IMG/VR virus record: IMGVR_UViG_3300029953_000063
Coordinates: 1 to 44,071 of that record
Origin: a virus
Length of the DNA stretch: 44,071 nt
Strand: one strand, 5' to 3'
Shown here: piece by piece, positions 11,572 through 36,552 of the stretch
Layout: each line of letters starts with the position of its first letter
Position numbering within the stretch: position 1 is the first letter of the stretch
Notes under the pieces: generated by a model
What the model saw: the letters and a program-made list of their open reading frames with translations, nothing else
The model's database searches: none
What the model was told of the DNA's origin: nothing
Translations under genes and position numbers: made by a program

Positions 11572-11649
11572 TGGTCGGGGAGGCAGGATTTGAACCTGCG
11601 GCTTTTTGGTCCCAAACCAAGCGCTCTGGCCAGACTGAGCTACGCCCCG
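11572..11649 (-). tRNA. tRNA-Pro (anticodon TGG)
   Basis: The reverse complement starts CGGGGCG TAGCTCAG and has a D-loop typical of tRNA. The anticodon loop TTTGGGA sits on the stem CTTGG/CCAAA, with an end C-A mismatch. The T-arm is GCAGG TTCAAAT CCTGC. The 3' end CTCCCCG-A-CCA includes an encoded CCA. The acceptor stem has one C-T mismatch at the sixth pair. Confidence 0.92.
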
Positions 11650-11653
11650 GAAA

Positions 11654-11730
11654 TGGTTGCGGGGAACGGATTTGAACCGTTGACCGATCGGGTATGAACC
11701 GATTGCTCTACCAGGCTGAGCTACCGCCGC
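11654..11730 (-). tRNA. tRNA-Met (anticodon CAT)
   Basis: The reverse complement reads GCGGCGG TAGCTCAG. The anticodon stem ATCGG/CCGAT holds loop TTCATAC (CAT). The T-arm is AACGG TTCAAAT CCGTT, and CCA is encoded. The acceptor stem has a C-C mismatch at the fifth pair. The first pair is G-C, as in elongator tRNA-Met rather than initiator. A tRNA-Ile read through lysidine cannot be excluded. It is four bases upstream of the tRNA-Pro gene, probably co-transcribed. Confidence 0.9.
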
Positions 11731-11859
11731 GGCCAAATCCATAGCGAATAAGCTTGACATGCGCTAGGGTCTGTTTGTTCGCGATTAGCCAGGCCCCGCC
11801 GGTAGCGCGCTCCCCCACAATTTGCGCGGTGTATGCCGCAGTTTTTGAGGAGATCGACT

Positions 11860-13211: not shown

Positions 13212-13898
13212 ATGGGACGCAGGAATTTCTATAAACCGGGGTCTTACTACGTAATCGACGACAGATCGGGGTTTGCCGTTCCGATCGAACGTGCCCGGAT
13301 GGAATGGAATGGTCTTTTAGTTCGCGAACAATCCTGGGAGCCTCGTCAGCCCCAGGATTTCGTCCGAGGAACAGTCGATCAACAATCGGTGCCGATTGCC
13401 CGTCCACGGACGCCACCGCAGTTTGTGCCCACGGGCATAAGTCCTGTCGTCGATATCTTCAACACTGCGATTGGCGGCGATTTCACCACAGATTTCAATT
13501 CGGATTTCGACATTGGATCGCTGGTGACCTGCATTCAGGTTCAGAACCAATCTGGATGGCTGACGGGCGACATTATCTGGATCATGCAAAATAATGGTGT
13601 TTTCTTCCGAGCAACCATCGTGGCTATCGGACCCGTGACGACAGGCTCCGGGTCACAGAGCGCATCCCCTTACGTGACGGTGATGCCGCAGGTTATCCAA
13701 GAGGTTGCCGCTCAAAATCCCGTCGTCAATATGGCCCTGCAAGCGCGGATAGCTGCGAACTTGTATCCGGGGATGATCGGTAATTTCACTATCGGACGGG
13801 ATTCTATCGGCGTGAATTCCCTGTCTGAGTTTGGTCCGCAGCTCGAAGATTATGACACGATCGCAGTCCTAGATCAGGTGGAGGATTTCTCTAGATGA
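13212..13898 (+). CDS. Conserved phage structural protein
   Basis: This 228-residue protein has an N-terminal block reading GRRNFYKPGSYYVIDDRSGF, then ARMEWNGLLV, then SWEPRQPQDFVRG. It is a recurring signature in podovirus and prophage tail regions: 'KpgsYyviDdRSGFkv....rkeWnGl.V....wE.RhPQDfvr'. The middle (about 90-180) is beta-rich (QSGWLTGDIIWIMQNNGVFF), consistent with a virion protein. Its precise role is unknown. It overlaps the tailspike gene by 4 bp (ATGA), so expression is probably coupled. Confidence 0.75.
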   Translation: MGRRNFYKPGSYYVIDDRSGFAVPIERARMEWNGLLVREQSWEPRQPQDFVRGTVDQQSVPIARPRTPPQFVPTGISPVVDIFNTAIGGDFTTDFNSDFDIGSLVTCIQVQNQSGWLTGDIIWIMQNNGVFFRATIVAIGPVTTGSGSQSASPYVTVMPQVIQEVAAQNPVVNMALQARIAANLYPGMIGNFTIGRDSIGVNSLSEFGPQLEDYDTIAVLDQVEDFSR

Positions 13899-16009
13899 GC
13901 GGCAACGGCAATTTACCGCCTGATCAATGGCCCCCTGGATACACGCCAAACGCTGCGGAGTGGGATGCTGCGTTTTCTGGCTTGGTCCGCAATGTTGGAA
14001 CGGCCACAACGGCAGGAGAATTGGCCGAATTTGCAGACAGCACAGGTCTCAACCTTGTGGGGGTTCCAAACACGCTGCTGACTGCCGTTCAGAGCGTATC
14101 AACCATCGCCGCTCTGCGTGCCTTGACGACTGTCACAGGCGCCGAAAGCATTGCCTACGTTGAAGGCTATGCGGCGAATGGAGACGGCGGTGAGGGGGTT
14201 TTCACAGTCAATTCCTCGGATACGACATCGGCAGATAACGGCGGCACTATCATTGTCGATGGGTCGGCCCGGCGCTGGTATCGCAGCCTGCATGCCTGTT
14301 CTGTTTCAGCCCATCACTTTGGCGCAACGGTCAATGCAGGGGTGGATTGCTCTGCCTCGGTCAATGCAGCGATCAACTTTGTGGCTCTGACTGGTGGCCT
14401 CGTTACCCTTGAAGCTGGGACTTATACCGTTTCCAGCACCATCATCATGAAGACCAAAGTGGGCCTGCAAGGTAAAGGTCATCAGAAAACATTCATCGTT
14501 GGCGCTGCTGGAACCACCATGGATCTGGTGCAGACCTATCAGTTCCCCGCGCTGACCGGCACCAACACGGTTGGCGGCCCCTATGGCTGGTCCATCAAGG
14601 GCATCAGCTTCAATGGCCTAAAAGCATCCCGATCCGCCGGCCGGTGCGTTGCGATCTATGGCTATGACTATGTGATTGATGATTGCGAATTCTTCAACGC
14701 TCATGGGGATGGCGTCTATTCGGAGTGGGCGACCTCGGGCAGCGTTCCTGTGGCCTCGGGTGGCAACGGGATGGAAGCCCTGATGGAGAACGTCAAGTTC
14801 TTCCAAAACGGCGGAAACGGCCTGACGTTCAATGGCCCGCATGATTCGGGCATCATCAATGCCCTGTCGTTCCTGAACACAGGATACGGGATCGCAGCAA
14901 ATCAAACGGCCAATTATTCCGGCGGCTGCAACCTCATTACTGTTCATGCATATGCCAACGGCAATCACGGCATTTACGTGAATACTGGCGTCAACATGGG
15001 TCAGGTCCAAAGCGAAAGTAATCTTGGCGCCGCTGGTGGCTTCTATATTGACACAGCGGGTTTTGTCGTTGGGTCCGATATCACCGCTTATTCAAACGGT
15101 GGGTTTGGGATGCAGGTCAATGGCGGCTTGTCTTCTATGTCTAACCTCTTTTTTCACGCCAATGGCACCAATGGCTTGGTGGTCAACGGGGGCGCCAATA
15201 CGTTCTCAAACGTCTTGTCCAGCAACAATGGACAGGACGGGGTAATCCTCACCTCCACTGGCACATCCAATATTATCTCCGGGTTGCTTTGCCAGTCCAA
15301 TGGCAGTTTTGGCGTGGCTTGCTCGGGATCGGATAACGCCATCACGGGCATTTTGGCTGAGTTCAACACGGGCGGCGGCGTGACGATCGCCAATGGGGTC
15401 GGTTTCGTCCGGATGTCTGGTGAGGTCAACAACAACGGGGCTGGCGCGGTTCAGGTGCCTCTGGGCACCATGGGTGCTGGCTGCATGATTGATCTGGCCG
15501 TGTTTACGGTCGCAGGCCAGACGGCGTGGACTGGGAATATCGGCAATAATTTCGTCCGCATCGCTGTGGCCGGTGCTGGCGCTGGCAGTCCGATTGATAG
15601 CGGTCCCGGTGTAACCGATGGGTCTAGCGCGAACGGCGGCCAGATCGGGGAAGTTGCGACAGTTCAGGGGTTTGGTGTGGCTCTGACCTCTGGAACCTCA
15701 GCGACCATAACCTCAATGGGCCTAACCCCAGGTGACTGGGATGTCACAGGTGTGGGGTTGGTCACGCCAAGTGGCGGAGCGACGATCTCTAACTTTGCGT
15801 CCAGCACATCAACGGCGAGTAGTGTCCTGGGCGCTTTCCCCTATGCCGCCATCATGAGCGCCAGCACGACGGGCCAGATGTCTGCGGCGCTGCCGACACG
15901 GCGCGTAAGCGTTTCGGCGTTCACGACGATCTATCTTGTGACCCAAGCTAGCTTCAGCGGGGGCACCGTCAATGGCGCTGGGTATCTCTATGCGAGGCGC
16001 GTGAGATGA
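13895..16009 (+). CDS. Tailspike with pectate-lyase-like beta-helix
   Basis: This is a 704-residue receptor-binding/depolymerase candidate. Residues 1-60 form a head-binding-like N-terminus (PPDQWPPGYTPNAAEWDAAF). A linker follows with 'GYAANGDGGEGVFTVNSSDT' and 'GSARRWYRS', typical of tailspikes whose spike domain starts with a 'FGA..dg..D.saavnaAi' block; here it is HHFGATVNAGVDCSASVNAA (about 147-166). A long right-handed beta-helix with Asn-Gly-rich turns covers about 170-560. The C-terminal domain (about 590-704) contains TPGDWDVTG and a beta sandwich. Its likely target is host surface polysaccharide. Catalytic acids cannot be placed by eye. Confidence 0.85.
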   Translation: MSGNGNLPPDQWPPGYTPNAAEWDAAFSGLVRNVGTATTAGELAEFADSTGLNLVGVPNTLLTAVQSVSTIAALRALTTVTGAESIAYVEGYAANGDGGEGVFTVNSSDTTSADNGGTIIVDGSARRWYRSLHACSVSAHHFGATVNAGVDCSASVNAAINFVALTGGLVTLEAGTYTVSSTIIMKTKVGLQGKGHQKTFIVGAAGTTMDLVQTYQFPALTGTNTVGGPYGWSIKGISFNGLKASRSAGRCVAIYGYDYVIDDCEFFNAHGDGVYSEWATSGSVPVASGGNGMEALMENVKFFQNGGNGLTFNGPHDSGIINALSFLNTGYGIAANQTANYSGGCNLITVHAYANGNHGIYVNTGVNMGQVQSESNLGAAGGFYIDTAGFVVGSDITAYSNGGFGMQVNGGLSSMSNLFFHANGTNGLVVNGGANTFSNVLSSNNGQDGVILTSTGTSNIISGLLCQSNGSFGVACSGSDNAITGILAEFNTGGGVTIANGVGFVRMSGEVNNNGAGAVQVPLGTMGAGCMIDLAVFTVAGQTAWTGNIGNNFVRIAVAGAGAGSPIDSGPGVTDGSSANGGQIGEVATVQGFGVALTSGTSATITSMGLTPGDWDVTGVGLVTPSGGATISNFASSTSTASSVLGAFPYAAIMSASTTGQMSAALPTRRVSVSAFTTIYLVTQASFSGGTVNGAGYLYARRVR

Positions 16010-28657: not shown

Positions 28658-30115
28658 ATGGCGACCGGTTCTCTTTTCTTCTCCCCCTATTTCCAGTTCA
28701 CGGATGCGTCTGGCGTTCCCTATGCTGGCGGATCGCTGGCGTTCTATTCCAGTGGCACCAATACGCCGCTGGCGGTCTATGCGGACCAAGAACTGACAAC
28801 GCCCCTGCAGAACCCTGTCCCGCTCAACTCTGCGGGCTGGCCGGAAGACCAGATCTGGCTGCAGACCCAGGAATATCGTGTGGTCCTGTCCGATGTGAAC
28901 GGAGTGCAAATCTGGGCGGCTGACCCGGTGGCAGCTGGCGGTCAGTTTACGGGTTCTGTGGTGGTTTCCGGCACCGGACAAGTAGGATTTACCGCCGTTA
29001 ATTTGTCTGCGAACGGGAATACTTGGGGATGGTATTCCCAAACCGATGGCACCTTCAATGCTATTGACTCAAACAATGGTGCCATCCCCATTTCAATAAA
29101 CAACGGCGGGACTGTTACGTTTTCTGTCACCCCCATTGTGGTGGCGCCGACAACCGTGGGCATCGTTCTGACGAGCACGGCAGTAGCTGGGCAAGAGTGG
29201 GCGCTATATTCAGCCGATGATGGTTCATTTAGTCTTTTCAACTCCACCAATGCCGTCACGCCATTTTATGTTTTGCCTGATGGAAATGTGACTTTCCAAG
29301 AAGCAGTGACCTTTGGTGGGGTTACGACTTTCAACCAAGCATCTGCTTTTGAACAGCCGGTCACGATGGCTGGGCCGTTTTATTCGACGTATTCAGCGGC
29401 ATTCTCGGCCACCACGACATTCACAGCGACTGAAACACATAGTGGCGCAGTGGGCTTTTCTGGAACTGTGACATTTAGCGGGGGATCGGACCCACTCATC
29501 ACAGGGACCGGAACGCCAGGACTAGAGATTACCAATACCTCTGGGAGCGGGCGCTCTTGGACGACTTATGTAAATTCGTCTGGTGTTTGGGTTCTGGCTG
29601 ACCAAACGGCTGGCCTTTCCCGCATGTATCTTGACTCTAATGGCGTCGTCACGATGACAGGAGGGGGCGATACCGGGACTGGTAGCTATGGATATCTCGC
29701 CAATACCGGGGCAGGAACGCAGACTGGCACCTATAGCTATGGGTTGAATGTTACGGGCGGCATCACCTCTACAATCTATTCTGCGACCTCTGATCGGCGC
29801 CTAAAAAGCAAAATAGAAAACATCACCGAAGACGATGCATGGTCCTATGTGATGGCAGCACGTCCTGTCACCTACCGTATGGATGGCATTTCAGGCGCCG
29901 GATTCATCGCTCAGGAAGAGGCCAAAGGGCCTCGCGCGGCATCGGTCGCAACCGTGTCCAACATCAGTTTGGAAGAAACGATTGATGAAGATGGGTTTGT
30001 CTCTCCTGCCGGATTTCAACTCACCAAGAACTATGACCATGACATCGCGTATCTGACGCGGGCAATCCAAAGCCTTAAAGCGGAACTTGAAGCCATTAAG
30101 AAAGGTTCAGTCTAA
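28658..30115 (+). CDS. Tail fibre with C-terminal peptidase S74 intramolecular chaperone
   Basis: This is a 485-residue protein. The N-terminal 90 residues (SLFFSPYFQFTDASGVPYAG, GSLAFYSSGTNTPLAVYADQ) form a fibre attachment domain found in many podoviral fibres. A beta-rich shaft follows with T/V/F-rich repeats. The C-terminus begins SATSDRRLKSKIENI (about 381-395) and continues with helices and NYDHDIAYLTRAIQSLKAEL. This is the endosialidase-type chaperone that trimerises the fibre and cuts itself off at the Ser-Asp step. The gene ends one base into the next start (TAATG), coupling it to the secreted-protein cluster. Confidence 0.88.
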   Translation: MATGSLFFSPYFQFTDASGVPYAGGSLAFYSSGTNTPLAVYADQELTTPLQNPVPLNSAGWPEDQIWLQTQEYRVVLSDVNGVQIWAADPVAAGGQFTGSVVVSGTGQVGFTAVNLSANGNTWGWYSQTDGTFNAIDSNNGAIPISINNGGTVTFSVTPIVVAPTTVGIVLTSTAVAGQEWALYSADDGSFSLFNSTNAVTPFYVLPDGNVTFQEAVTFGGVTTFNQASAFEQPVTMAGPFYSTYSAAFSATTTFTATETHSGAVGFSGTVTFSGGSDPLITGTGTPGLEITNTSGSGRSWTTYVNSSGVWVLADQTAGLSRMYLDSNGVVTMTGGGDTGTGSYGYLANTGAGTQTGTYSYGLNVTGGITSTIYSATSDRRLKSKIENITEDDAWSYVMAARPVTYRMDGISGAGFIAQEEAKGPRAASVATVSNISLEETIDEDGFVSPAGFQLTKNYDHDIAYLTRAIQSLKAELEAIKKGSV

Positions 30116-33100
30116 TGCGCCGTCTATCATATATTTTAGGACTGGTTTTTTTCTTTGTGGCACACGCGGCTTTTGCTCAAAGCCCTGGGACCATCAATAT
30201 TTGCGGTCCTTCTCGGTGTCCGGGTAATCCGCAAATAGGTGACACTACGATAAACAACGCGGTTAACCCTGCTCTTGGTCTCAAGATTGACACCAATGGA
30301 GGTGTTGCCACTAATCTAACCATCAATGGCGGCAACGTGCCTTCGGGTCAGGTATTCACTGTTCCCACCGCCCCTGCTGGCACGAACACGACGCAGGCGG
30401 CGAGCACGGCGTTTGTCAATGTCCAAGCCCCTGCCGCCGCCTGGTCCGGCACCGGCTTCGGGTTCAGCGGGGCACCGAGTGCGGCGAGCGTGGGCGCGGC
30501 AGTTTCTACAGTGCCAGCGGCTGGCACAGCAAGCAGGCTTAACTCTGACATTTTCGGTGATTATAAGTCGGCTGAAAACTGGCGATGCACGGCCGGGACG
30601 CCGAATTATATCGCAAAGACCTGCACCGCAGGCGGAACTTATCTTGATGATGGAGCAACTTTGCAAGCAGCATTCAATGCTGCTACCCGTATCCTCATCC
30701 CGAAGAACTACTATCTCCTACCCTCCGATACGATCCCGACCGCGACCAATGACCTCGACATAATGGGGCTTGGGCCGCAGATCAGTGGAATTTATCTGGA
30801 CCCCAGCGTCACAGGCTCGAATTCGGACATTTATACGGTCGGCCAGGAAAGTGTCACTGGCGCGACGCTTGGTTCGCCGGGCACTGGCGGCACCAATGGC
30901 GCCTGCGTATTGACTGGGACATCTGGAGCTTTGGCCTCTGGAGGCGCCTATTTCCAAGTGGCGGGCACTGTGTCCGGCGGCCAGCTGCAGTCGGTCGGCA
31001 GCGTCATTTCGGGGGGCGCCTATATCAGCCCGCCCAAAACCGGGCTCGAATTTGTCACCAGCAATTGCGGCCTTACCAGCGCGCAGCTCAACCTGACATT
31101 GGCGTATTCGATTGCTCATGTGAAGCTGAGCTATATGACCTTTGGCGGCAACTGGGGTGCGCCGGACCCGAACAATCCGGGCCAATTTCTCTATTCCCAG
31201 GTCGGCAACCCGCTGGTGCTTTTGAAGGGTGTGGACAACGTCGAGCTTTCGCACGTCCGTTTTCAGAACTCTCGCGCCTTTACCTTCCAGACGCGGTTCT
31301 CCCGCAACGTCGATATCGGGAATTACGAAGTCCTGAACTCGGTGCGCGATGGTATCGCGGTCTGGGACACGTTTTATGTCAACATTCATGACGGATACCA
31401 GAAAGGCGGCAACGACAGCGCCATCTCGCTTCACGTCGATTCCGATGCCACGCAGCCGCGCACATCTACCCGCGTCAGCAACATCACGCTGGTGGACACG
31501 TCGAGCATTGACACGCTGGGCGCCAAGATCCTGCAGGTCGACAACATCATCTGCTGGCGTAGTCATGGCGCCTGCGTGACGGTCGGCGGCTATGTGCCAG
31601 GCAGCCAAGGCGATACCTCGAACTGGGGCATTTCCCTCCAAAACATCCAATCCTACGACCCGATCCAGGGCAGCTTCTTCTTCCAGACCACGCCTCCAAC
31701 ACCAGCGCCGGCTAATGCCCAGATCCTGATCAACTCCACACCTTGGAGTGCGGGAAGCCTTGGCGCAGTCCCGATGCAAAACGTGGTCGGGTCTGGCACA
31801 ATTGCAGCTGTCCTCGGCACCTATTACAATAATGGCGTGCTCGCAGGGGGCCTTCCTTCTCCACCCTCGCAGCAGATCGACATCGGCGGTGTCGTGATCC
31901 GCCAGACCTTGCCGCCGGTTGCGAATTACTCTGACTGGGGATATGGCAAAGCGTTTGGGGGCACTGTCGGCTGGCTTGACGGCCCAATCACGCAAACCAT
32001 GACCACGTCACACGGTATGGAGTTTCGTGGCCCGATTTGGGACATGCGGGTGCATGATTTCCATATCGCTGATGGAAGCTATGGCCTTCGGTTTACCTGC
32101 ACCACGTCAGGCACGATCTGTGCATCGGGGTGGCCGAACAATCTGTTTCGCCGCGTCGTCATCGAAGACGGAACGATCACGAATTCGCCGGTCGATTGCG
32201 TGCAGTTCTTCGGCCAAGGCACTGTCCCGAGCTCGCAGGATATCGAGTTCAATCACGTCACCTTTGACTGCGATTCCGAGTTCACCGCATCGACCCGCGG
32301 GGCAAACGGCAAGTGGGCCAGCACGTCGCCCTATGCCATAGACTCCCCGTATGTCAGTGGCATGCGGATCGTAAATAGCTCGTTCCGCGACCTCGCTATC
32401 CCGGTCAACGAGACCGGCATCCCAGCCAATACCAACTATTACCTCAATGATACGATTTATGCGTATCCGGCGTTCCCAAGCTTCAGTCCATCCAATGCCG
32501 GGGTCGCGAAATCGTATCCTGATGACCAGCAGTGGCAAACGATCTTTGAGTATTCCGACCCCACGCTGTCCAATTTCCGCACGATTGCGGGCGTGCCGTC
32601 ATCGTCTTCGGCCTCGATGCCCGTCACCGGTTGCTATACCGGCGGCAGTTTCGTCATGGCGCAGAACACATCCTATGGCCCGTCCGGTGAACCCGCCGGC
32701 TGGTCGCGGATCACCACGGGGTGCAACCATAACCCTGTCTCGGCGCTGGCTATTGTGAACGCTGGGACGGGTGGGACGCCTGGCACCTATGCCCTGATTT
32801 TCACGTCCACCAACGGTTCGGGCGCTGCGGGCACCTTCACGGTCGGGGCCGGCGGCACGGTCACCGGGACCTCGCTGACCAATGGCGGCAACAGCTACCA
32901 AGCTAGCCTCCCGCCGACCATCTCGCTTGCCAATGCGCCCGGTTTGACCGGGGCATCAGTCACGGCCTCGGTCGAGGGCGACTGGGCGCAAACCTACGCG
33001 TTCTGGGGCGGCCCTGGTTCGCCGTATAAAGACAATATCGTCCTGAGTTCGAGCAATGGTGGCCTGCCATCTGTCTCGTCCAACAGCGCAAGCAGCAGCA

Positions 33101-33459
33101 TCGTCGTCACCCCGACCGGCACGGGCTCGACAGTGCTCACAGCCGCGCTGAAATCCACCGGCCTAGCGCCAACCATCTCGGCCAATTTTGGAACGTCACC
33201 GACGATCGCTGGCAACAACACACGATCTGTCGTCACGGTTGGCACAGGTGGCGCCACCCAGGGCACCATTCTATTCAATCCGGGTCAGCCTCTGACCGCA
33301 GGATCTACGTCCTGCACGGCGGTAGATAATACAACATCACCCTCCACCAGCGGCAGCCTTTGGGCCCAGGTCAGTGCAAGCGGTCTGTCTGTGACCGTTT
33401 TCGCGATCGGCGGGACCATGCAGGCTGGCGACAAGATCGTCGTCAATTGTGGAGCGTGA
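30115..33459 (+). CDS. Large beta-helix protein with N-terminal signal peptide
   Basis: This is a 1114-residue protein. Residues 1-22 (MRRLSYILGLVFFFVAHAAF then A-Q) form a textbook Sec signal peptide: basic n-region, hydrophobic core, AFA cleavage site. About 60-110 is a fibre-like Thr/Ala segment (APAGTNTTQAASTAFVN). About 150-750 is a pectate-lyase-like right-handed beta-helix, beginning DDGATLQAAFNAATRILIP. Later parts are beta-rich (AIVNAGTGGTPGTYALIF) with fibre-like C-terminal domains. About 16 cysteines remain after cleavage, consistent with disulfides. Either it is an exported polysaccharide-binding/degrading protein, or a tailspike routed to the periplasm. Virion tail proteins normally lack such signals. 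Confidence 0.83.
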   Translation: MRRLSYILGLVFFFVAHAAFAQSPGTINICGPSRCPGNPQIGDTTINNAVNPALGLKIDTNGGVATNLTINGGNVPSGQVFTVPTAPAGTNTTQAASTAFVNVQAPAAAWSGTGFGFSGAPSAASVGAAVSTVPAAGTASRLNSDIFGDYKSAENWRCTAGTPNYIAKTCTAGGTYLDDGATLQAAFNAATRILIPKNYYLLPSDTIPTATNDLDIMGLGPQISGIYLDPSVTGSNSDIYTVGQESVTGATLGSPGTGGTNGACVLTGTSGALASGGAYFQVAGTVSGGQLQSVGSVISGGAYISPPKTGLEFVTSNCGLTSAQLNLTLAYSIAHVKLSYMTFGGNWGAPDPNNPGQFLYSQVGNPLVLLKGVDNVELSHVRFQNSRAFTFQTRFSRNVDIGNYEVLNSVRDGIAVWDTFYVNIHDGYQKGGNDSAISLHVDSDATQPRTSTRVSNITLVDTSSIDTLGAKILQVDNIICWRSHGACVTVGGYVPGSQGDTSNWGISLQNIQSYDPIQGSFFFQTTPPTPAPANAQILINSTPWSAGSLGAVPMQNVVGSGTIAAVLGTYYNNGVLAGGLPSPPSQQIDIGGVVIRQTLPPVANYSDWGYGKAFGGTVGWLDGPITQTMTTSHGMEFRGPIWDMRVHDFHIADGSYGLRFTCTTSGTICASGWPNNLFRRVVIEDGTITNSPVDCVQFFGQGTVPSSQDIEFNHVTFDCDSEFTASTRGANGKWASTSPYAIDSPYVSGMRIVNSSFRDLAIPVNETGIPANTNYYLNDTIYAYPAFPSFSPSNAGVAKSYPDDQQWQTIFEYSDPTLSNFRTIAGVPSSSSASMPVTGCYTGGSFVMAQNTSYGPSGEPAGWSRITTGCNHNPVSALAIVNAGTGGTPGTYALIFTSTNGSGAAGTFTVGAGGTVTGTSLTNGGNSYQASLPPTISLANAPGLTGASVTASVEGDWAQTYAFWGGPGSPYKDNIVLSSSNGGLPSVSSNSASSSIVVTPTGTGSTVLTAALKSTGLAPTISANFGTSPTIAGNNTRSVVTVGTGGATQGTILFNPGQPLTAGSTSCTAVDNTTSPSTSGSLWAQVSASGLSVTVFAIGGTMQAGDKIVVNCGA

Positions 33460-33529
33460 ACGCCATGACCCCTGACCGAGAAGGAGCCGGGATGCGGGAC
33501 GAAAACTTGAAACCAGAGGAGATTGAAAC

Positions 33530-34066
33530 ATGCGTTTGAGTGGTCTTGCTCTGTTCAGCCTGTTGCTATCTACGGTGAGTGCCTACGCGCAAATTGCGCC
33601 AGGCCCTCCGCCTACATCAACTTATTGCTCGAATTCATCGGGTTCTGGATGGGTTCCGTGTCCTCCGCCCATAGGGAACACATCCACTCCTGATGTGACC
33701 TCTCCGCAGCCTCCTGCGACAGCCACGGCATCATCTGGTCCGCTCATGTGTCAGCAGGGCACCGCAAGCGCTACGCTGGTTTGCAAGGCGTCTGCGGGCA
33801 ATCTGTATGGGGTTCAAGCCACCGTGCAGGCGAGCACGGTGGCGTTTTGGGTGCTCGTCTTCAATGCGACGGCAGCACCGGTTGACGGCGCGGTAACCCC
33901 ATCCAAGTGTTTTTATGTGCCGGCCAATTCCACAGGGACATTGTCGTTTCCGGTCTTTGGTCCATATTTCTCGGCTGGGATTACGTTTTCTGCGAGTTCC
34001 ACTGGCTGCTTCACCAAAACGGCCGTGACGGCTAATTTCCCATTTCTGTCGGGAGACTATCGGTGA
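33530..34066 (+). CDS. Secreted beta-rich protein with signal peptide
   Basis: This is a 178-residue protein. Residues 1-20 (MRLSGLALFSLLLSTVSAYA) form a Sec signal with an AYA-type cleavage site before QIAPG. The mature part has a Pro/Ser/Thr-rich segment, then an Ig-like or jelly-roll beta domain (YGVQATVQASTVAFWVLVFN). It has six cysteines (near 30, 41, 70, 83, 123 and 154), an even number consistent with disulfides. AGAGGAG precedes ATG 33530. It follows the 1114-residue exported protein by 70 bp and overlaps the next gene by 4 bp. Function is unknown. Confidence 0.8.
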   Translation: MRLSGLALFSLLLSTVSAYAQIAPGPPPTSTYCSNSSGSGWVPCPPPIGNTSTPDVTSPQPPATATASSGPLMCQQGTASATLVCKASAGNLYGVQATVQASTVAFWVLVFNATAAPVDGAVTPSKCFYVPANSTGTLSFPVFGPYFSAGITFSASSTGCFTKTAVTANFPFLSGDYR

Positions 34067-34452
34067 AACGGGCGCTATCGGTTGCATGCCTTTTGCTTGC
34101 CACTGGCTTGGTAGTTGCCCGCGGGCAAGGGTATTCGAGCACAGGCGTGACATTGGTCCAAGCAACCAATGTCACCACAGCCTCTGACGGAACATGGGCT
34201 GTGACGTGGAAAACCCCCTTTAACACGTCACAACCATTTGTTGCGGCGCATTATATCGGGGTGGCTACCGCTCAGCCGGTCCAGTGTATGCTTACGTCAT
34301 CGACCTCCACCAGCGCTTCAGGGAAATGCTACGCCGGTCAAAGCACGCTGCTAAGCCTATCTATTGTGACCACGGGCATAACTGTCCTTCCCTTTGCTGT
34401 TTCATCTGGTGGTATAGCGGTTCAAGTTCTTGGCCGAGACACGACGCAGTAA
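34063..34452 (+). CDS. Small secreted beta-rich protein with signal peptide
   Basis: This is a 129-residue protein with a GTG start at 34063 overlapping the previous stop (GTGA). Residues 1-22 (MKRALSVACLLLATGLVVAR, then GQ) form a signal-like segment, though the cleavage site is less canonical. The mature part is a compact beta domain (TWAVTWKTPFNTSQPFVAAH, ITVLPFAVSSGGIAVQVLGR) with two cysteines flanking a Ser/Thr loop. The strand pattern resembles the small beta-sandwich tip domains at the ends of phage fibres. It is the third consecutive exported product of the cluster. Confidence 0.77.
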   Translation: MKRALSVACLLLATGLVVARGQGYSSTGVTLVQATNVTTASDGTWAVTWKTPFNTSQPFVAAHYIGVATAQPVQCMLTSSTSTSASGKCYAGQSTLLSLSIVTTGITVLPFAVSSGGIAVQVLGRDTTQ

Positions 34453-34474: not shown

Positions 34475-34897
34475 ATGTTTTCTATGGTTCGCCCCAGGTA
34501 TGCCGTTCAAGGGCTTTTGGGATACCTCCGAGAAGGGCGGAATATAGGCCATGTCGTTACTCTGGGGGTCATGACGGGCATTGCTTGTGTGGTTCTCTTC
34601 TCCGGTGGCACTTTCTACACAAGCATTTCATACAATTGGTTTTTTGCGCATTGGCCCTACACCGAAAGAGGTTGGGGCCTTTTGTTTGCCGCCTTCTCTT
34701 TGCTCGGCTCCCTGACGTTCTTTACCAAGAACCGTTACGTTCATTTGGCATCTGCGACGGCCATGGGAGTCGGGCACCTTCTGATCGCCCAGGGCATGTG
34801 GATCTCAAACCATCTCAGCACAGCCCCGATCACATATTCGTTCGTGGCATTCCTTAGCATTTGGGTGTTTTGGCGGGTCATCGAAGAGGAAGGGTGA
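34475..34897 (+). CDS. Four-span membrane protein A
   Basis: I choose ATG 34475 (MFSMVRPRYAVQ), with GGAG at 34461, over ATG 34430, which lies inside the previous gene. The product is 140 residues with four hydrophobic segments: VVTLGVMTGIACVVLFSG (about 27-44), GWGLLFAAFSLLGSLTFF (67-84), HLASATAMGVGHLLIAQGMW (90-109) and YSFVAFLSIWVFW (120-132). Function is unknown. It lies at the start of the membrane/lysis module and may be holin-related or a host-envelope modifier. It is immediately followed by a second protein of the same topology. Confidence 0.75.
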   Translation: MFSMVRPRYAVQGLLGYLREGRNIGHVVTLGVMTGIACVVLFSGGTFYTSISYNWFFAHWPYTERGWGLLFAAFSLLGSLTFFTKNRYVHLASATAMGVGHLLIAQGMWISNHLSTAPITYSFVAFLSIWVFWRVIEEEG

Positions 34898-34901
34898 CCT
34901 C

Positions 34902-35267
34902 GTGAAATTTCCGTCCTGCCGGTCCAAAAGACTACTTGCAGATTATGTCTTGGCTCTGCTGCTTTTCTGCTGGTCAGTGCATGTGATGATTTTCCCCGCA
35001 GGGATGGACCGAATTGCCGCTTATCGGTGGATGACGATTAACCCCCAAGTAATTGCTGGAATTGGTATTTTTGTTGCTGGGTGCCAGTTTTTTTCTGCTG
35101 TTTTCATGGTTGCATGGGCTAGAAGATTAGGGGCAATTGCGGCGGGATCAATCATGTTTAACTTTGCCGTTAAAGTCTTCGAAGTCCAGCCCGAGGCGCA
35201 TATCAGTTCGTTTTATGGCGGCTTGGCGTTGAGCAACTTGATCTTGTTTTTCTGGCCGTGGATGTGA
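34902..35267 (+). CDS. Four-span membrane protein B
   Basis: This 121-residue protein has a GTG start at 34902 (GAAGG upstream). The hydrophobic segments are YVLALLLFCWSVHVMIFP (about 15-32), VIAGIGIFVAGCQFFSAVFM (50-69), LGAIAAGSIMFNFAVKVF (76-93) and GGLALSNLILFFWPW (106-120). The N-terminus is basic. No family is recognised. Similar size and topology to the preceding gene suggest a two-component membrane unit, but sequence similarity between them is not evident by eye. Confidence 0.73.
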   Translation: MKFPSCRSKRLLADYVLALLLFCWSVHVMIFPAGMDRIAAYRWMTINPQVIAGIGIFVAGCQFFSAVFMVAWARRLGAIAAGSIMFNFAVKVFEVQPEAHISSFYGGLALSNLILFFWPWM

Positions 35268-35273
35268 CCCGAT

Positions 35274-35681
35274 ATGGCTGATTCTCCGCAGGGATGGTGG
35301 GAAGAGTTCCGCCAATGGTTTTCCGGTGCCGGGCTCGCTTTTGGGGTCGGCATTTTTTATGGCCTGCGGTGGGCGTTCAAGGACTGGTGGAGCAACCGGA
35401 GCGATTCGGCCAAGGAAGAGAAGCGCCAGAGGGAGCGTGACCGGCGGTCAGAAGACCGGCAGGACAAAGACCTCACCACGGCGTGGGCTCGGATTGACGA
35501 TCTGGAAGACGGCAGGCGTGAAATTGAGCGTGACCGGGACCGCGGCTGGGATTTGGCCCGAGGGTGGTTTGATGTGGCCCATCAGGAACGGCATGCCCGC
35601 AACAACCTACTGATGGCTGCCGGGGGCCGTGCTCTTGATCCTCTGCCTGGCTTTGAAGAACTGGAAGGACGGCGCCAATGA
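35274..35681 (+). CDS. Putative inner-membrane spanin (Rz-like)
   Basis: This is a 135-residue protein. A single N-terminal membrane span (FSGAGLAFGVGIFYGLRWAF, about 16-35) is followed by a long, highly charged coiled coil (SDSAKEEKRQRERDRRSEDR through REIERDRDRGWD, about 43-100). That topology matches i-spanins, which link inner and outer membranes at lysis. Its position directly before the endolysin (4-bp overlap) supports this. The C-terminal 30 residues are more globular than usual. Alternatively it is a membrane-anchored structural accessory. Confidence 0.62.
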   Translation: MADSPQGWWEEFRQWFSGAGLAFGVGIFYGLRWAFKDWWSNRSDSAKEEKRQRERDRRSEDRQDKDLTTAWARIDDLEDGRREIERDRDRGWDLARGWFDVAHQERHARNNLLMAAGGRALDPLPGFEELEGRRQ

Positions 35682-36163
35682 GTTTTGCTCAGGCTTTTGC
35701 GTTAACGGTTTCCCCCGCTGTTGAGGGGGGATATTCCAATAATCCTGCTGATCCGGGGGGCGCCACGAAATACGGAATATCCCAAGCAGGTTATCCCTCC
35801 CTCAACATTGCGGCCCTCACGCTTTCCGATGCCCAGACGATCTACCAGCGTGATTATTGGGCCGCATGTCAGTGTGACGCTCTTCCTCCCGCTGTCGCCG
35901 GGCTCGTCTTCGATGCCGCCGTGAATCAAGGGCCAGCGTGGGCACGCAAGGCGCTTCAATCGGCCGTGGGGGTGACAACTGATGGGGTGATCGGCCCAAA
36001 GACCTTGGCGGCCGTAAAATCAGCCGATCCCGCCACGCTTCATGCTACCATCGGATGGTTGCGTGAGACCGCCTATCGTCAGGCGGCTGACTTTCCGACT
36101 TTTGGGCACGGTTGGATTATCCGGCTATGCCGCGTTATCGCCGCGTCTGCGGCATTCACATGA
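35678..36163 (+). CDS. Endolysin, glycoside hydrolase 108 lysozyme
   Basis: This 161-residue protein has 'EGGYSNNPADPGGATKYGIS' at about 16-35, carrying the family's catalytic Glu (E16). It continues with YQRDYWAACQCDALPPAVAG and a Phe-Asp-Ala-Ala-Val-Asn-Gln-Gly segment. The C-terminal half matches the peptidoglycan-binding part (GVTTDGVIGPKTLAAVKSAD). No signal or SAR segment is visible at the N-terminus, so it should need a holin for release. It cleaves the cell-wall glycan at lysis. ATG 35678 overlaps the Rz-like gene. Confidence 0.92.
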   Translation: MSFAQAFALTVSPAVEGGYSNNPADPGGATKYGISQAGYPSLNIAALTLSDAQTIYQRDYWAACQCDALPPAVAGLVFDAAVNQGPAWARKALQSAVGVTTDGVIGPKTLAAVKSADPATLHATIGWLRETAYRQAADFPTFGHGWIIRLCRVIAASAAFT

Positions 36164-36171
36164 GGGACATC

Positions 36172-36552
36172 ATGACTGATCTCAATCGACGGAATTTCGG
36201 CACTGCAATCTTGGCTGCGGGAGCTTCCACGGCCTTAGCCGGTTGCTCGGGGCTTGCTTCCACCATCACCACTGAAGCCGGCAAAATCAGCGCGACCATC
36301 GTGACTGACGTGGGCACGCTCACCAATCAATATGCGATCGTCAAAGGCATTGGTCAGGTTGCCTTGGCCGCCCTCAGCGTTGCAGATCCGGCCGCTGCCA
36401 CGATCATCAGCGATGGCATTTCCCTTATCGACGGGTGGATTGCCGCCGGCAGTGCGACGGTTTCTGCCAATGCTGCGACCATAGTCACCACTACCCAGGC
36501 CATTCTGGCCGCTGCGGCGCCCGCTATTACCGCCGTTAAGAACGCTGCATAA
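36172..36552 (+). CDS. Lipoprotein with twin-arginine signal, lysis cassette (o-spanin candidate)
   Basis: I choose ATG 36172 over ATG 36112, which lies within the endolysin gene. The 126-residue product reads MTDLNRRNFGTAILAAGAST, then ALAGC. An RRNFG twin-arginine-like motif, a hydrophobic core and a lipobox LAG|C would anchor the mature protein to a membrane through Cys25. The mature part is an Ala/Thr/Ile-rich helical-looking chain (VSANAATIVTTTQAILAAAA). The family is unknown. Position after the Rz-like gene and endolysin suggests an outer-membrane spanin, but it is longer and less Pro-rich than Rz1. Confidence 0.75.
   Translation: MTDLNRRNFGTAILAAGASTALAGCSGLASTITTEAGKISATIVTDVGTLTNQYAIVKGIGQVALAALSVADPAAATIISDGISLIDGWIAAGSATVSANAATIVTTTQAILAAAAPAITAVKNAA

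Follow-up and report, generated by a model that had tools for sequence, protein, structure and literature searches.

Why would a phage place Sec signal peptides on proteins that seem to be built from tail fiber and tail spike domains? Spikes and fibers are usually regarded as cytoplasmic virion parts. The question is raised by a 44,071-nt stretch of viral DNA with 52 called genes (IMG/VR record IMGVR_UViG_3300029953_000063; hereafter, the window), in which three consecutive plus-strand genes (P2, P3, and P4) code for proteins with predicted signal peptides. P2 (30115–33459; 1114 amino acids) starts with the signal peptide MRRLSYILGLVFFFVAHAAFA followed by Q (30115–30177) and continues with a short module containing a cysteine pair, a fiber linker, a tailspike beta-helix, and C-terminal beta domains. 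P3 (33530–34066; 178 amino acids) has the signal peptide MRLSGLALFSLLLSTVSAYA, again followed by Q, a linker, and a jelly-roll domain (residues 70–178). P4 (34063–34452; 129 amino acids, GTG start) combines the signal peptide MKRALSVACLLLATGLVVARG, also followed by Q, with a beta domain and a cysteine pair. The P2 start shares one base with the stop codon (TAATG) of an upstream tail fiber gene (28658–30115, plus strand), and the P4 start lies within the P3 stop (4-base overlap, GTGA). The upstream fiber (485 amino acids) has an S74 chaperone domain (Peptidase_S74, PF13884, E 1.3e-7) and matches tail-fiber PHROGs, including phrog_1980, but carries no signal peptide and no cysteines. We tentatively favor the view that P2, P3, and P4 are Sec-exported adhesin or spike modules of the virion type that act on a receptor or polysaccharide in the cell envelope or its surroundings.

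The sequences of the three proteins support their export. Signal peptides were called with a simple rule made for this analysis rather than with SignalP, based on a charged n-region, a hydrophobic core, and an AxA-like cleavage site at the N-terminus and having a background of about 2%. Scored from the listed starts, exactly 3 of the 52 window genes passed the rule, and these were the consecutive P2 (score of 6.27), P3, and P4. Among 2075 internal 45-mers, none scored as high as P2 or P3 and only one as high as P4. The predicted mature proteins have even numbers of cysteines (16 in P2, 6 in P3, and 2 in P4, which has a third cysteine inside the leader). Both observations agree with the first-pass annotation of the window, which had described the open reading frames as three signal-peptide genes in a row after a coupled S74 fiber and had counted the same even cysteines. 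No lipobox was found, as none of the three proteins has a cysteine at the cleavage site and all are predicted to begin with Q when mature. The signal peptides would be cleaved, and disulfide bonds would form in the periplasm, the predicted location of the proteins.

The relatives of P3 also support export. A pattern search recovered the C-terminal domain of P3 in 33 viral loci and a profile search in 106, of which 80 were kept. The conservation across phages that the first-pass annotation had suggested looking for was thus found, in over 70 uncultured phages; a few Sphingomonas and Acetobacteraceae genomes also encode the domain. Most of the comparison sequences are metagenomic, and genes in these loci were called greedily by length. 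We scored 75 distinct members of this family (about 30–50% identity) from an intact start and identified signal peptides in 61 and none in the other 14. All 61 signal-bearing members have a cysteine pair in the domain, which is at the canonical position in 58 (Cys127 and Cys160 of P3) and relocated in 3. The canonical pair is absent from all 14 signal-less members, which typically replace the second cysteine of the GCFTKT motif with proline (GPFTKT); one of them (L149) has two other cysteines. Five apparent exceptions with a signal peptide and no cysteines were resolved as a false start (L130), relocated pairs (L138, L150, and L163), and overlapping frames (L125, excluded). The raw Fisher p value of the association (6e-10) overstates its certainty because the members are phylogenetically dependent. 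Each trait changes five times on the best tree, but only one change is forced by well-supported branches. The association is thus strong, whereas how many switches were independent is unproven. Most simply, the signal peptide would be a working one: proteins that have it would reach an oxidizing compartment, and those that lack it would not. A side observation in the same family is a signal-bearing protein of 2515 amino acids that ends in a P3 domain (L106, 2716–10285).

Relatives of P4 in other phages are encoded immediately 3′ of P3 and vary with it. Those beside signal-less P3 proteins (L112, L142, and L146) lack both the signal peptide and the cysteine pair, whereas those adjoining exported P3 proteins mostly have the pair. 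Five P4 relatives (L026 6285, L032 6285, L035, L151, and L160) depart from the signal rule in that their cysteine pair is retained behind short, uncharged hydrophobic leaders (e.g., MIAALLLAQ and MIGLALALQ). These very short leaders, together with a signal call that depends on a simple rule of our own, are what one would cite to argue that the proteins are not exported, that their hydrophobic N-termini arose by chance or stay in place as membrane anchors, and that they act in the cytoplasm or in the virion. Furthermore, virion disulfides are present in the Agrobacterium phage Milano, which was studied without mention of signal peptides (PMC10811340). Such an explanation is very improbable given the presence of signal peptides in all of the scored members with a cysteine pair despite the family's divergence, the covariation of the cysteines, the bias toward even cysteine counts, and the low background of the rule. 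Two other observations concern genes near P3–P4 pairs. Large signal-less proteins that follow the pair in five loci (L026 6825, L032 6795, L034 6944, L035 2261, and L088 10885) resemble SGNH hydrolases by eye and are possible surface esterases. Another phage pair lies near a signal-bearing DUF1996 protein (L137, 12254–13501; PF09362, E 8e-34).

If the proteins are exported, what are they? P2 has a beta-helix spike domain by homology to annotated tailspikes. Residues 345–869 match the tailspikes of Klebsiella phage K40PH129C1 (Drulisvirus) and Synechococcus podovirus S-SRP01 (tblastn, E 2e-14 and 1e-6, respectively), and residues from about 300 to 873 align along the entire beta-helix of both spikes with 25–26% identity. 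The two tailspikes have matches to the Beta_helix and Pect-lyase models of Pfam (PF13229 and PF12708), and no Pfam model matched P2 itself. The pectate-lyase-like beta-helix named in the first-pass annotation thus holds by homology. Unlike P2, both spikes lack a signal peptide and carry the T7-type virion anchor PF03906 (E 1.5e-18 in S-SRP01 and 1.1e-12 in K40PH129C1). A Pfam search did not find this anchor in P2, whose N-terminus is occupied by the signal peptide instead. The cysteines are also specific to P2, as none of the 16 aligned with a cysteine in three signal-less spike relatives. At about residues 84–101, after the short cysteine-containing module, P2 has the linker PTAPAGTNTTQAASTAFV, which elsewhere sits in signal-less fibers of other phages. 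The one exception is a fiber-linker protein with a signal peptide (MKKFILFFTLLFAGITANAQ) on a viral contig of Bacteroidota-like type that does not belong to the P3 group (L077 3829). A profile search with the spike domain added two further relatives, both signal-less. Full-length P2 matched only itself in viral contigs, and its N-terminal module as sole query found only its own contig. The S74 fiber and a second fiber of the window (704 amino acids) were considered as obvious paralogs of P2 and showed no significant similarity to it. A match of residues 858–950 to phrog_460 (E 2e-4) was judged to be a low-complexity beta match.

The small proteins are also predicted to have folds resembling virion parts. 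The P3 domain was modeled with AF2 as an all-beta jelly roll (pLDDT mostly above 90) that resembles trimeric knob and decoration proteins at a generic level (Z about 6–7). For example, the KHP40 cement protein (Z 6.9) is one of many equal matches. This protein, the HFTV1 turret, and C1q/TNF proteins are trimeric jelly rolls that the P3 model resembles but, as virion or animal proteins without sequence similarity to it, they are comparable only at the level of the generic fold. The best match in BFVD, from Ralstonia phage RSK1, is a closer relative. The core of the P4 model (AF2, pLDDT 78) looks like an H-type lectin or fiber tip, with BFVD matches to H-type lectins and gp53-like fiber tips (E 1e-3 to 1e-2, TM about 0.5). 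These models fit the first-pass description of both proteins as beta domains like fiber tips. A PDB sequence search returned no credible match, and neither P3 nor P4, in signal-bearing or signal-less versions, matched any of 50,697 phage records, so similarity-based annotation has overlooked P3. The sequences support an ancestry of the trio from adhesin and spike parts of virions.

What could such proteins do outside the cytoplasm? We envision virion-type adhesin and spike modules that became detached from the virion and acquired signal peptides for Sec. The trio would be made late in infection, alongside the lysis genes, and threaded through Sec to fold in the periplasm with disulfide links. 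Their site of action may be the envelope and, once the cell has lysed, its surroundings. P3 and P4 would bind, and P2 would bind or cleave, a surface polysaccharide or receptor used by phages of this kind. As a result, infected cells and debris would stop capturing incoming or progeny virions, providing superinfection exclusion and progeny protection. The late timing, the target, and the effect on adsorption are all inferred. The roles put forward in the first-pass annotation, namely an exported depolymerase, receptor masking, or a surface adhesin, are likewise hypothetical. The fact that the genome also encodes signal-less fibers supports this proposal. These are the S74 fiber and a tail fiber/EPS-depolymerase-like protein of 704 amino acids (13895–16009, plus strand; phrog_11393, phrog_19929, and phrog_4250), which is presumably the virion spike. 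The C-terminal domain of the 704-amino-acid fiber recurs in exported proteins (L013 6246 and L129 10291), with no cysteines in two signal-less members and two cysteines in two signal-bearing ones.

Known exclusion proteins offer a partial parallel. Llp of phage T5 is an exported, periplasmic, disulfide-bonded lipoprotein for superinfection exclusion whose gene directly follows the one for the receptor-binding protein (PMC9586334). Rtp45 is a similar, disulfide-bonded exclusion lipoprotein (PMC12685063). Like these two proteins and Cor of T1/phi80, the trio is phage-encoded and, by prediction, Sec-exported. Furthermore, its genes are directly downstream of, and overlap, the S74 fiber gene, whose product may be the receptor-binding protein. 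The export of Llp and its location beside the receptor-binding protein are the precedent for favoring a receptor-directed action in the envelope or outside the cell. However, Llp, Cor, and Rtp45, all lipoproteins, are very small and bear no relation to proteins of the virion, and the trio has no lipobox, is much larger, comes three in a row, and has spike-, knob-, and lectin-like domains. Other phage proteins exported via Sec, such as the SAR endolysins and Lys44 of Oenococcus phage fOg44, a secreted endolysin made late with a Sec signal peptide (PMC6116005), are lysis enzymes that act on peptidoglycan and do not have adhesin or spike domains. The first-pass statement that no described system has such a layout was, therefore, too strong in view of Llp, but the domain make-up stands without a precedent that we could find. 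We found none for exported proteins that are themselves built of virion spike, fiber, or decoration domains, nor for the coexistence of signal-peptide and signal-less versions of one domain. Similarly, no description of exported fiber or spike arrays was found in the literature searched, a coverage that leaves out most subscription papers.

The loci of other P3 proteins show that exported neighbors are common and bring in the main rival explanation. Runs of two to five consecutive signal-peptide genes were present, with at least two in 27 of the 61 loci and at least three in 8. Around exported P3 genes, signal-peptide genes occupied 25 of 47 positions at +1, 13 of 47 at +2, and 4 of 190 at −8 to −3. 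Even cysteine counts prevailed among exported neighbors (even to odd, 49:5) compared to signal-less genes of the same loci (199:230; Fisher p of 1.4e-10). PHROG and domain matches of the 49 exported neighbors included tail fiber, tail spike, collar fiber, head decoration, and virion structural proteins; further matches were to pectin lyase, C1q, and glycine-rich families. In eight exported proteins with different C-termini, the module QSGxVTPGHxxxWxTxGVIxDxG follows the cleavage site. Three points weigh against a free, receptor-directed role for the trio. A common N-terminal module with variable C-termini is also the pattern of virion-attached fibers. P2 has no detectable similarity to the genome's own fibers, which gives no support for a common receptor. 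Finally, none of the three proteins has a lipobox or other outer-membrane anchor with which to reach or mask an outside receptor before lysis.

The main rival is that the trio are virion parts matured in the periplasm, that is, disulfide-folded fibers or decoration proteins that would join virions at lysis via attachment points in the modules after the signal peptide. The shared module is consistent with this explanation, as are the head-decoration and collar-fiber matches and the P2 linker otherwise typical of signal-less fibers. In addition, signal-less P3 and P4 relatives are encoded within the structural gene block, between terminase and portal (L140 and L112), and exported versions are likewise close to portal and capsid genes. 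We nonetheless regard it as doubtful, though possible. Dilution would work against assembly once cells have lysed, the known virion anchor of the T7 type is gone from P2, and the genome already encodes signal-less fibers. Moreover, we know of no tailed phage that builds its fibers via the periplasm. In a broader and rather unlikely version, widespread uncultured phages would build the virion partly outside the cytoplasm, with Sec-exported, oxidized spike, knob, and decoration proteins joining DNA-filled particles at lysis. The signal-less, cysteine-less versions of a module would then represent one assembly route and the signal-bearing versions with a cysteine pair another.

The genome context bears on a further explanation. 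A 62,609-bp IMG/VR contig overlaps the window as a circular permutation (overlap of 157 bp), so the genome is probably complete, with a length of about 62.45 kb. The phage is podovirus-like, with genes for terminase (starting at 143), portal (2793), major head protein (8553), head closure (17027), DNA ejection (20245), transglycosylase/tape (21240), and a protein of 1683 amino acids (23603) upstream of the S74 fiber. Two tRNA genes (Pro-TGG and Met-CAT; 11572–11731, minus strand) lie within the structural region. The trio is positioned between the fiber genes and the lysis region (34475–36163, plus strand), which encodes two small membrane-type proteins, a coiled-coil protein, and a GH108 endolysin (35678–36163). 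Adjoining the endolysin is a possible exported lipoprotein (36172–36552, plus strand) that begins with MTDLNRRNFGTAILAAGASTALAGC and has a twin-arginine motif and a lipobox.

This location among late structural and lysis genes argues against lysogenic conversion, in which the exported adhesins and enzymes would serve the lysogen as surface tools made from reused tail domains. Some observations do point that way. In Sphingomonas melonis AS2.3, a P3 relative (L088) sits in a region that resembles a prophage and carries portal, P3, P4, and capsid genes, and 3 of 7 related phage records have a serine recombinase. Phage lambda also provides a parallel: Lom is, like the trio, an exported product of a tail-fiber locus; it forms an Ail-like barrel in the outer membrane and is made by the lysogen. 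However, neither a tyrosine (PF00589) nor a serine (PF00239) recombinase was matched in the 62.6-kb record, and the 299 genomes of the S. melonis family included only 3 with the P3 domain. Both results make lysogenic conversion less likely, and we consider it improbable.

Whichever role applies, the P3 family exists in two forms, one exported and ready for disulfide formation and the other signal-less and poor in cysteines. Judging from their sequences, dozens of uncultured viruses with signal-bearing P3 relatives probably send spike-like proteins into the host envelope. If these proteins are receptor blockers or depolymerases, they would constitute a large, unrecognized reservoir of phage-made proteins acting on the envelope. 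If they instead join the virion at lysis, they would change our understanding of phage assembly.

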